64,000 bases of DNA from Flavobacterium ammonificans (GTDB lineage Bacteria > Bacteroidota > Bacteroidia > Flavobacteriales > Flavobacteriaceae), in assembly GCF_020886115.1 (NCBI RefSeq), contig NZ_AP025185.1:930001-994000 (forward strand), in the 5' to 3' direction. Below are positions 59,652 through 61,844 of this stretch, piece after piece; the stretch's first letter is position 1, and each line of letters opens with the position of its first letter. A program made the translations under genes and the position numbers. The notes below the pieces were generated by a model that saw only the letters and a program-made list of their open reading frames with translations, had not been told where the DNA came from and searched no databases.

Positions 59652-60206
59652 TTGGCAAACGAACGCATCATATTAGGAATTGACCCTGGAACCACTATTA
59701 TGGGTTTTGGATTGATTAAAGTAGTCAATAAAAAGATGGAATTCTTGCAATTGAACGAACTACAATTATCCAAATACGACAATCACTATCAAAAGTTAAA
59801 AATCATTTTTGAACGTACTATTGAACTCATTGAAACCCACCATCCGGATGAAATAGCTATTGAAGCGCCATTCTTTGGAAAGAACGTGCAATCGATGTTG
59901 AAACTAGGTCGCGCACAAGGAGTAGCTATGGCAGCGGGACTTTCTCGCGGAATTCCCATTACAGAATACGAACCTAAAAAAATAAAAATGGCCATCACTG
60001 GAAACGGTAATGCTAGTAAAGAACAAGTAGCCAAAATGCTCCAACAACTGTTAGGTCTTAAAACCTTGCCGAAAAATTTAGACTCCACTGATGGATTAGC
60101 TGCGGCCGTTTGTCACTTCTTTAATTCGGGCCGACTAGAAATTGGAAAAAGTTATTCGGGTTGGGATGCTTTTGTGAAGCAAAATGAGGAACGAATTAAG
60201 CAATAG
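59652..60206 (+). CDS. ruvC: Crossover junction endodeoxyribonuclease RuvC
   Basis: Holliday-junction resolvase (184 aa). The catalytic acidic residues are visible in ILGIDPGTTIMGFG (Asp), AIEAPFFGKNVQS (Glu) and LDSTDGLAAAVCH (two Asp). The start is probably TTG at 59652 (reading ANERIILGID); no ATG precedes the conserved core. The stop codon (60204-60206) touches the left repeat of the cassette that follows. Confidence 0.94.
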   Translation: MANERIILGIDPGTTIMGFGLIKVVNKKMEFLQLNELQLSKYDNHYQKLKIIFERTIELIETHHPDEIAIEAPFFGKNVQSMLKLGRAQGVAMAAGLSRGIPITEYEPKKIKMAITGNGNASKEQVAKMLQQLLGLKTLPKNLDSTDGLAAAVCHFFNSGRLEIGKSYSGWDAFVKQNEERIKQ

Positions 60207-60674
60207 TGTTCAGTGTGCAGGTTTTAGTGTTCAGTCAAACTAATTTTATTCTATGAGATTTCAAGATTTATTAGCCTACAAAAAAGGATTTATTGTTGCG
60301 ATGGAAATTTTTGAATTAACGAAAAATTTCCCAAAAGAGGAAATCTATTCTTTAACGGATCAAATTCGTAGAAGTTCTAGAAGTGTTACAATAACTATAG
60401 CTGAAGCATATAGAAAAAGAGAGTATCCAAAATATTTTCATAGTAAATTAACTGACGCTGATTCAGAAAATTCAGAGACGCAGGGTTGGTTAGAATACGC
60501 TTTAGCTTGTAAATATATTTCACAAGAAATTCACGATTCTATTCTTGAAAAGTCAAAAGAAGTTGGTAAGCTTATCAATTTTATGATATTAAATCCAGGT
60601 AAATTTGGTTCTAAATCTGAAAACTAATATTTTCTTAATCTCGTCTGACCACTAAAATCTGACCACTGACCACT
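60205..60674. mobile_element. Putative cassette: four-helix-bundle gene flanked by 32-bp inverted repeats
   Basis: The left end (60205-60236) and the reverse complement of the right end (60643-60674) match at 26 of 32 positions. Each end is made of reiterated units: TGTTCAGT appears twice on the left and TGACCACT twice on the right, plus a partial copy. The gene inside begins 16 bases after the left end, and the right end stops six bases before the hemW ATG. ruvC and hemW remain intact. No transposase is present. Confidence 0.55.
60253..60627 (+). CDS. Four-helix-bundle protein (23S rRNA intervening-sequence type)
   Basis: A 124-aa all-helical protein. Motifs of the family are FQDLLAYKKGFIVAMEIFEL, LTDQIRRSSRSVTITIAEAY and QGWLEYALACKYIS. 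Members are found in intervening sequences of 23S rRNA and as stand-alone genes in Bacteroidota; their function is unknown. The gene has no rRNA context here. Paired inverted repeats on both sides suggest it belongs to a mobile cassette. Confidence 0.92.
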   Translation: MRFQDLLAYKKGFIVAMEIFELTKNFPKEEIYSLTDQIRRSSRSVTITIAEAYRKREYPKYFHSKLTDADSENSETQGWLEYALACKYISQEIHDSILEKSKEVGKLINFMILNPGKFGSKSEN

Positions 60675-60680
60675 TTAAAA

Positions 60681-61844
60681 ATGAGCGGAATATACATTCA
60701 CATACCTTTTTGCAAGCAGGCTTGCCATTACTGCGATTTTCATTTTTCGACCTCAATGCAGAAAAAAGAGGAAATGGTTTTGGCTTTGGCCAAGGAATTG
60801 CAATTGCGAAAGAGTGAGTTTGAAAACGAATCAGTCGCAACAATTTATTTTGGAGGAGGAACGCCGAGTAGATTGACTATTGCGGATTTACAATTGTTGA
60901 TTGCTTCAATTTATGCACAGTATACAATTGTAGAAAAACCAGAAATTACTCTCGAAGCCAATCCTGATGACTTGTCAGAATCCTATTTGTCCGATCTTAA
61001 AACTATTGGAGTTAATCGCTTGTCTATTGGAATTCAGTCTTTTTTTGAGGATGATTTGAAGTTAATGAACCGCGCTCATAATTCGGCAGAAGCCAAAAAG
61101 TGTTTGGAAATAGCTACCCGTTATTTTGATAATATTTCATTGGATTTAATTTACGGAATTCCTGACCTGAGCCAGAATGGCGAACAGGCGAAGCAAATGT
61201 CGAACGAAAGATGGCAGCAGAATATTGAAACGGCGCTGTCTTTTGGGATACCGCACATTTCCAGTTATGCTTTGACTGTTGAACCTAAAACGGCTTTGAA
61301 CAAACTGATTCAAACCGGAAAAATAGCTTCACCGAATGATGAGGTAGCCCAAGAACATTTTATGATTTTGGTCGAAACACTTGAAAAAAATGGATTTGTT
61401 CATTATGAATTGTCCAACTTTGGTAAAGAAAACTATTTTTCTCAAAATAATTCGGCCTATTGGTTGGGCAAAAAATACATAGGAATTGGCCCTTCGGCAC
61501 ATAGTTATGATGGTATTTCGAGGAGTTGGAATGTTGCAAATAACGCCTTGTATCTGAAAGCGCTCCAGAATGATGAATTACCCAATGAAGTCGAAAAATT
61601 AACTTTGGAAGATCGGTATAATGAATATATTATGACAGGTTTACGAACCATTTGGGGTGTTTCTTTGGTCCGAATTGACCAAGATTTTGGCATAGATTTT
61701 TTAAATTATTTGAAAAAACAATCACAAAAATTTATTGACGATGGGTTGCTTTCTATCACTGACGACATTTTGAAGCCAACATTGAAAGGCAAATTTTTAA
61801 CAGATGGAATTGCAAGTGATTTGTTTTACTTAAATTTGGAATAA
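60681..61844 (+). CDS. hemW: Radical SAM heme chaperone HemW (coproporphyrinogen dehydrogenase-like)
   Basis: A 387-aa radical SAM protein. The cluster motif is IPFCKQACHYCDFHF (Cx3CxxC), followed by YFGGGTPSRLT and LSIGIQSFFEDDLKLMNRAH. The C-terminal HemW/CPO region includes NSAYWLGKKYIGIGPSAHSY. Such proteins carry and insert heme; the old name is oxygen-independent coproporphyrinogen III oxidase-like. HemN's additional features are not seen. The ATG lies six bases after the cassette repeat. Confidence 0.93.
   Translation: MSGIYIHIPFCKQACHYCDFHFSTSMQKKEEMVLALAKELQLRKSEFENESVATIYFGGGTPSRLTIADLQLLIASIYAQYTIVEKPEITLEANPDDLSESYLSDLKTIGVNRLSIGIQSFFEDDLKLMNRAHNSAEAKKCLEIATRYFDNISLDLIYGIPDLSQNGEQAKQMSNERWQQNIETALSFGIPHISSYALTVEPKTALNKLIQTGKIASPNDEVAQEHFMILVETLEKNGFVHYELSNFGKENYFSQNNSAYWLGKKYIGIGPSAHSYDGISRSWNVANNALYLKALQNDELPNEVEKLTLEDRYNEYIMTGLRTIWGVSLVRIDQDFGIDFLNYLKKQSQKFIDDGLLSITDDILKPTLKGKFLTDGIASDLFYLNLE

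Follow-up and report, generated by a model that had tools for sequence, protein, structure and literature searches.

The segment at positions 60205-60674 of the analysed Flavobacterium ammonificans DNA (a stretch of 64 kb, henceforth called the window) is interpreted as one mobile unit without a transposase and of REPIN-like architecture, whose two arms would be read by a ring of the protein encoded between them; we give this reading a probability of about 0.5. That the enclosed gene, a member of the 23S rRNA intervening-sequence protein family (IVP), and its arms form one unit, with turnover, is well supported. The element and its neighbours are as follows.

59652..60206, plus strand: ruvC, upstream host gene; its stop codon TAG (60204-60206) overlaps the left arm
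60205..60234, plus strand: left arm; five AG-headed units in 7-nt steps, the first AG being that of the ruvC stop codon
60253..60627, plus strand: IVP gene; four-helix bundle protein of 124 aa (PF05635, TIGR02436; Avd-like fold)
60645..60674, minus strand: right arm; five AG-headed units in 7-nt steps, ending six bases before the hemW ATG
60681..61844, plus strand: hemW, downstream host gene; name taken from the earlier note, start motif read, ATG at 60681

Structure of the element

An earlier note on this DNA had described inverted-repeat ends around the gene (matching at 26/32), and these were confirmed as arms of 30 nt each with 83% complementarity and a separation of 410 nt. Together with 160-nt flanks, the arm pair reached a score of 35 (z 8.2), which was attained by none of 100 dinucleotide shuffles. 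The left arm reads AGTGTTC-AGTGTGC-AGGTTTT-AGTGTTC-AG and the right arm, reverse-complemented, AGTGGTC-AGTGGTC-AGATTTT-AGTGGTC-AG, i.e., AG occurs five times per arm at exact 7-nt spacing (plus strand on the left, minus strand on the right). The repeat unit, previously given as an octamer, was corrected to a heptad; the octamers of the note share one base by overlap. The left end does adjoin the ruvC stop codon as described, to be exact by overlapping it via the AG of the first unit, and the distance of six bases between the right end and the hemW ATG was reproduced (60674 and 60681). The whole window was scanned with the AG motif, which was learned from a wider locus set and not from the window alone, yielding four chains of at least four AG at 7-8 nt spacing (three forward, one reverse); the only chains of length five were the two arms, which also form the only convergent pair. 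A sigma-70-like promoter was not found in 60100-60760 by a scan whose reach excludes Flavobacterium-type promoters.

The genome of the window contains four IVP genes, all flanked by co-directional genes and each accompanied by inverted repeats with differing letters. Three of the four arm pairs exceeded all 100 shuffles, and the fourth (L001) was equalled by 2 of 100. Elsewhere in this genome (L284 1430-5760; G000:C1:1273830-1278160), three one-directional AGTGTTCAGTGTTCAG stretches were observed near other short TACGATATACGA-like units; at this locus, the AGTGTTCAGTGTTCAG stretches were without a convergent partner of the same pattern.

The enclosed protein

The enclosed protein passed the cut-offs of PF05635 (100 bits; cut-off 33.8) and TIGR02436 (89.6; cut-off 24), in keeping with its previous assignment to the 23S intervening-sequence family, and just passed that of bAvd (41.9 bits; cut-off 40), and the profile search gave no match to a nuclease family. 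A crystal structure for PF05635 has been available since 2006. Single-sequence fold prediction was poor (pLDDT 52), and an alignment-based model was used instead (pLDDT 95), in which the protein is predicted to be a four-helix bundle with 2RLD and 2GSC as the best PDB matches, followed by Avd (4DWL, TM 0.77/0.89; 8UB7, TM 0.77/0.78). PDB entries 2GSC and 2RLD hold five chains each, and the crystallised pentamer is XCC0516. Sources marked “in part” are cited here from abstracts, sections, or passages. The Xanthomonas protein was termed a homopentamer (PMC4990558, in part), and the Avd-like nature of PF05635 has been noted before (PMC10053308, in part). By analogy with 2GSC, 2RLD, and the protein of PMC4990558 (in part), the IVP of the window is probably a homopentamer as well. 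“23S rRNA IVP” is also listed in a survey of CRISPR-linked proteins (figure legend, PMC10910872, in part), in which direct repeats around IVP genes might have passed for small CRISPR arrays.

Inverted arms at IVP loci

PF05635 genes were present in 77 of 100 relatives. For the detection of arms, the upstream flank was aligned to the reverse complement of the downstream flank, with a threshold score of 26. The Flavobacterium-side set (the best-scoring among the matches listed) comprised 94 loci with 98 IVP ORFs, of which 96 entries were retained after removal of those without both flanks or with duplicate flanks; in the many-phyla set, 79 of 80 loci had both flanks. Inverted arms with a score of at least 26 were detected at 72 of 96 IVP loci (among the matches listed), compared to 13 of the 221 other ORFs at these loci and to 20 of 471 mispaired flanks; all 100 shuffles were exceeded at 67 of 96 IVP loci (among the matches listed) versus 7 of 221 other ORFs. 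In the many-phyla set, 51 of 79 loci reached the arm score. Below it were 24 of 96 loci (among the matches listed) and 28 of 79, three of these 28 being Xanthomonas loci where the called start lies inside the arm.

Among the 16 dinucleotides, AG was the most over-chained relative to shuffles in both arms of the Flavobacterium-side set, and GT and AG led the chain excess in the many-phyla set. In the 3' arm, AG chains of five units were found in 23 of 72 cases (four units in 9, six in 3; among the matches listed) and in 18 of 51 cases of the many-phyla set (four in 9, six in 1). In the 5' arm, the peak was less sharp: of the 72 arms (among the matches listed), 18 had five units and 13 had six, and of the 51 arms of the many-phyla set, 11 had five and 7 had six. 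The remaining arms mostly carried shorter chains. Judged from these counts, five is therefore the commonest long form, i.e., the mode for the AG units per arm and not a rule. The grammar of the unit is common to many junctions, at which arms and gene recur together. The earlier note had considered that other four-helix-bundle loci might lack the repeats, which is contradicted by the inverted arrays at the 72 loci, or that they might carry the same repeat ends, which holds for the grammar, whereas the letters agree only within a protein subfamily. Other IVP genes (L234, L235, L236) were observed between genes that we take to be carA and carB, with GGCCAGA-, GGGAGCA-, and GGGGACC-like arm letters; accB, accC, and UbiA-like are likewise names presumed from reading of the protein letters. 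No link between IVP genes and such repeat arrays was found among the listed matches in the literature covered, preprints and most subscription papers lying outside this coverage.

Across 123 elements, the similarity of the arrays was about 0.05 at a protein identity below 60%, 0.19 at 60-70%, 0.46 at 70-80%, and 0.60 above. Close IVP pairs mostly occupy one junction (81 of 97 pairs at 70-80% identity, 42 of 45 above); for pairs at different junctions, the array cosine was 0.17 (59 pairs) at 60-70%, 0.38 (16 pairs) at 70-80%, and 0.57 (3 pairs) at 80% and above. Records labelled Nitrospirae and KSB1 have AGGCACAAAG-type units in common at 67% protein identity. By these sequence comparisons, the arm letters track the protein subfamily, also between different junctions.

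The ruvC-hemW junction in Flavobacterium

The ruvC gene was found in 292 of 299 genomes of the genus, and 70 ruvC-hemW junctions were assigned to classes by pattern rules, with two loci appearing misfiled by eye (L303, which was reassigned before the hemW tree analysis, and L290). Ten junctions were filled by an IVP gene in arms of the window's class, 39 carried gene-less palindromes (three letter classes with 7, 11, and 20 junctions, plus one junction with two palindromes), and five were clean (0-2 nt or overlap); the rest were other short (7) or other long (5) junctions or ones in which hemW was not reached (4). A different palindrome, CTCCTCCCCTTTGGGGAGG, was observed at this junction in two genomes (L097 and L121). 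Counted with the real stop codons, five AG at 7-8 nt spacing were present in the left arm of 4 and the right arm of 1 of the 18 gene-less CAGT palindromes, figures that rise to 11 (left) and 7 (right) at a spacing of 6-9 nt. The arms of filled junctions had 2 to 8 AG units, with five being reached in 4 left and 3 right arms out of 10 each.

Relatives of the window protein at an E-value of 1e-25 or better were present in 108 of 299 genomes, and at least 20 listed copies of its subfamily carry internal stops. Parsing succeeded for 28 of the best 30 loci, of which 22 lie at ruvC-hemW and six, all with CAGT-type arms, at one other junction, so that the IVP unit has occupied more than one place. 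On a hemW tree (quick, without bootstrap, and holding 63 of the 70 junctions), IVP presence needs at least nine changes, seven of them forced by starred branches; shuffled labels average 9.5 changes, and the clustering of IVP presence thus does not exceed the random level. The small element landing between genes that had been suspected from the window is thus seen as gene plus repeats coming and going: the junction without the cassette exists in relatives, a second junction is occupied, and a single fixed arrangement, which would have spoken against such an element, is not what the relatives have. The picture of a gene-containing cassette holds for the ten filled junctions and has to be amended for the 39 gene-less palindromes.

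Two alternatives are to be weighed against these data. According to the first, the arrangement is old and inherited, the arms having arisen by local slippage and inverted duplication and the turnover consisting of losses and junction recombination. The prevalence of one junction among IVP pairs at 70-80% identity (81 of 97) and the many subfamily copies with stops agree with this, as do the nine changes on the hemW tree against a shuffled mean of 9.5, a result that exchange of the junction could also give. An insertion is nevertheless needed somewhere because of the five clean junctions, the three letter classes, the tandem palindromes at one junction, and the same IVP unit at a second junction, and we regard this alternative as highly improbable.

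The second alternative takes the arms as ordinary intergenic hairpins of the host, REP- or terminator-like, into which IVP genes fell by chance, with the protein being unrelated to them. It would account for the frequency of gene-less palindromes (39 of 70 junctions) and for the dispersal of the window's letters, as AGTGNTCAGTGNTCAG was found scattered in 22 of 30 Flavobacterium genomes irrespective of whether the junction was filled. It is considered quite unlikely, since letters and protein go together between junctions and once between phyla (67% identity, Nitrospirae/KSB1), arms are far commoner at IVP loci than at neighbouring ORFs (72 of 96, among the matches listed, versus 13 of 221), and a terminator-like site was not found at the ruvC-hemW locus. 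Gene-less palindromes of the element's kind occupy the ruvC-hemW junction and are dispersed in genomes. The letters of the window itself show only a weak genome-wide link (in trans); its genome contains four exact matches, the element included, and AGTGNTCAGTGNTCAG is absent from one genome with a filled junction.

Heptamer repeats in Xanthomonas, Luteimonas, and relatives

In three Xanthomonas species, the XCC0516 orthologue is located between accB and accC, with GGGAATC-type heptads converging on it from both sides, as expected if protein and arms belong together. For X. campestris, 186 GGGAATC repeats have been reported, in 70 cases as convergent pairs and most commonly with four units, without a protein partner (Rehm et al., PMC4692102, in part); “S23” and “four helix” are absent from the main text of this source. 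The repeats are unusually stable in place, with 90% lying between the same ORFs in two species (PMC4692102, in part), which counts against frequent movement there. Pattern counts in genomes, those of AGTGNTCAGTGNTCAG included, refer to overlapping windows and not to sites. In 28 of the 80 many-phyla genomes, GGGAATNGGGAATNGGGA had 85-222 windows where the closest IVPs occur (five genomes: three Xanthomonas, Luteimonas, and Dokdonella) and 0-3 windows in the 23 others. The Dokdonella IVP has GGGATT-type arms, yet its genome has 85 GGGAAT windows, so that only four of the five genomes match in letters.

Among 81 relatives of Luteimonas, an IVP hit was obtained in 15 of 18 array-rich genomes (at least 10 windows of one of three letter classes) versus 12 of 63 array-poor genomes (p 1e-6; one weak hit, G414 with an E-value of 9.5e-4, excluded), leaving 3 of 18 array-rich genomes without a hit. 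The commoner of GGGAAT and GGGATT agreed with the arm of the accB-accC IVP in 12 of 12 genomes (p 0.002), with most arms read from the 5' side only and G408 and G407 being mixed: GGGAAT exceeded GGGATT in the six genomes with GGGAAT arms, and the reverse applied to the six with GGGATT arms. As the genomes are related, neither p value is independent of kinship. The third class, GTGATT, follows neither arm class. Inspected by eye, 19 gene-less convergent palindromes of Luteimonas-type genomes, chosen for visible convergent hits, displayed four clear units, a degenerate fifth, and an AAAAGC-like inner end, the last of which was also seen at the IVP copy.

Arm mismatches and gene orientation

When the two arms of each of 123 elements were compared over their interior columns, mismatches affected 2% of the cells at the G of AG and 24-29% of those at spacer positions. 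Chain positions of any dinucleotide had below-average mismatch, AG and GT being lowest among the common ones, and each arm keeps its own AG register. Over the 123 arm pairs, 98 mismatches keep a G-U pair in the sense RNA versus 143 of the A-C kind (p 0.0045). This lean toward A-C is the opposite of what stem selection produces, and since G-U-keeping mismatches are the rarer ones, the arms look not selected for pairing in the sense transcript. A stem in sense RNA was therefore rejected as unsupported by the direction of wobble. Gene orientation was counted for 175 loci, 18 of which were set aside (12 incomplete, 6 with far neighbours): 97 of the 110 arm-flanked IVPs with both neighbours were sense and 4 antisense to co-directional neighbours, and the respective numbers for the 47 IVPs without arms were 39 and 0. 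As the sense lean is also seen without arms, it belongs to the gene, and it may reflect read-through expression.

These data bear on a further alternative, in which the unit acts at the RNA level: the arms would pair as a stem in the operon mRNA, as in the 23S rRNA IVS, or the IVP ring would act like TRAP on the transcript, clamping it at the AG units of the IVP's own 5' arm for autoregulation or processing, with the palindrome separating or regulating the neighbouring cistrons. The sense bias (97 versus 4 with arms, 39 of 47 with 0 antisense without) and the contact of the arms with stop and start codons are in line with it, as are the excision by RNase III of IVS elements with an IVP protein (PMC4990558, in part) and the post-transcriptional binding proposed for TAACTGA heptamers (MacGregor, PMC4679880, in part). 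The sense bias is, however, likewise explained by expression, the AG register is also kept in the 3' arm, where it lies on the antisense strand, and the G-U count runs the wrong way; in our view, this alternative is rather unlikely.

Candidate movers

The genome of the window has no match to the reverse transcriptase family RVT_1 (PF00078) and contains two Y1 genes, the flanks of which showed no such arrays by eye (best inverted scores 25 and 21). A resident Y1 transposase or reverse transcriptase as the mover was thus dropped as unsupported. A different kind of repeat (AAATCCCTAACGGGATT-like; REP- or array-like) was observed in several copies after a Y1 transposase gene (G000:C1:1568200-1568544; L355 downstream flank). 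In a related alternative, such an enzyme (Y1 of the RAYT/IS200-like type, or a reverse transcriptase) moves the palindromes with or without the gene, the IVP being a mere passenger or helper. The presence of two Y1 genes, the REPIN-like architecture (PMC3116915, in part), and the cooperation of Avd with a reverse transcriptase (PMC10053308, in part) fit this possibility, but the lack of arrays beside the Y1 genes, the absence of RVT_1 from the genome, and the letters following the IVP make it very unlikely. An unrelated idea, that 7- or 8-nt units place stop codons in all frames, was dropped owing to its misfit with the GGGAATC class.

Proposed mechanism

In the preferred reading of a mobile unit with protein-read arms, the IVP gene would sit in the loop of a palindrome whose arms are each an array of about five AG-headed 7- or 8-mers. 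The IVP would form a pentameric ring like its crystallised relatives, and each subunit would read one unit, on the AG strand of the DNA at the 5' side of each arm; with one unit per subunit, one ring would fill one arm, and two rings would join both ends. We infer that one ring reads five units, with each subunit reading one, from three observations: five is the commonest count, the register is kept, and the relatives are pentamers. An enzyme supplied by the host or by another element would then copy or capture the bound, probably single-stranded palindrome at a new site between genes. Like REPINs, palindromes without a gene would be mobilised in trans. The gene itself would be expressed by read-through from the host operon, which would explain its sense bias.

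More tentatively, and as a possibility that we hold to be less probable than the reading for the window, IVPs at large may clamp nucleic acids in a sequence-specific, five-fold manner (with one ring per arm and one subunit for each AG-headed heptad). They would then define mobile palindromes that are widespread, lack a transposase, and have letters co-evolving with the protein; gene-less members would include the orphan heptamer repeats known from Xanthomonas and perhaps those from cyanobacteria and Beggiatoaceae. This may link an unexplained protein family to unexplained short repeats: PF05635 is without an assigned function, heptamer repeats are listed without a binding protein, and a role for both becomes directly testable owing to the matched letters and the count of about five. 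If true, there would be a widespread kind of bacterial mobile element without its own recombinase, and some repeats at operon junctions would be remains of IVP elements.

Comparison with known systems

Like the GGGAATC repeats of Xanthomonas and the GGGGATT repeats of Nostoc (Rehm et al., PMC4692102, in part), the arms of the window element are intergenic heptads, which in those repeats form convergent pairs in part of the cases. Unlike the window element, those heptamers were described as possible quadruplex formers and without a protein partner (PMC4692102, in part). The enclosed protein shares its modelled fold with Avd of diversity-generating retroelements; unlike such a retroelement, the genome has no PF00078 reverse transcriptase. 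TRAP is a ring that reads evenly spaced AG-containing triplets in RNA, eleven units with one per subunit. It serves as a working analogy only, in which the IVP ring would read evenly spaced AG units, one per subunit; the IVP fold is unrelated to that of TRAP, and binding by the IVP is put forward by analogy.

The 23S rRNA IVS also occurs in gene-less hairpin forms, in Salmonella. It resembles the window element in carrying an ORF of the IVP family between terminal inverted repeats (28-bp stem in Coxiella; PMC4990558, in part). Unlike the IVS, the window element lies between the protein genes ruvC and hemW and outside the 23S rRNA gene, and its arms are arrays of AG-headed heptads without sign of selection for sense-RNA pairing. 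With REPINs, it has in common the dispersed gene-less extragenic inverted pairs together with few gene-holding copies (PMC3116915, in part), and such dispersed pairs of one letter class were encountered in Xanthomonas/Luteimonas-type genomes. Unlike REPINs, the arms are multi-unit arrays, and unlike in REPIN-RAYT systems, the enclosed gene encodes a PF05635 four-helix bundle instead of a Y1 tyrosine transposase, the Y1 genes being located elsewhere. As it lacks the defining feature of each, the element is filed as neither REPIN-RAYT nor IVS.
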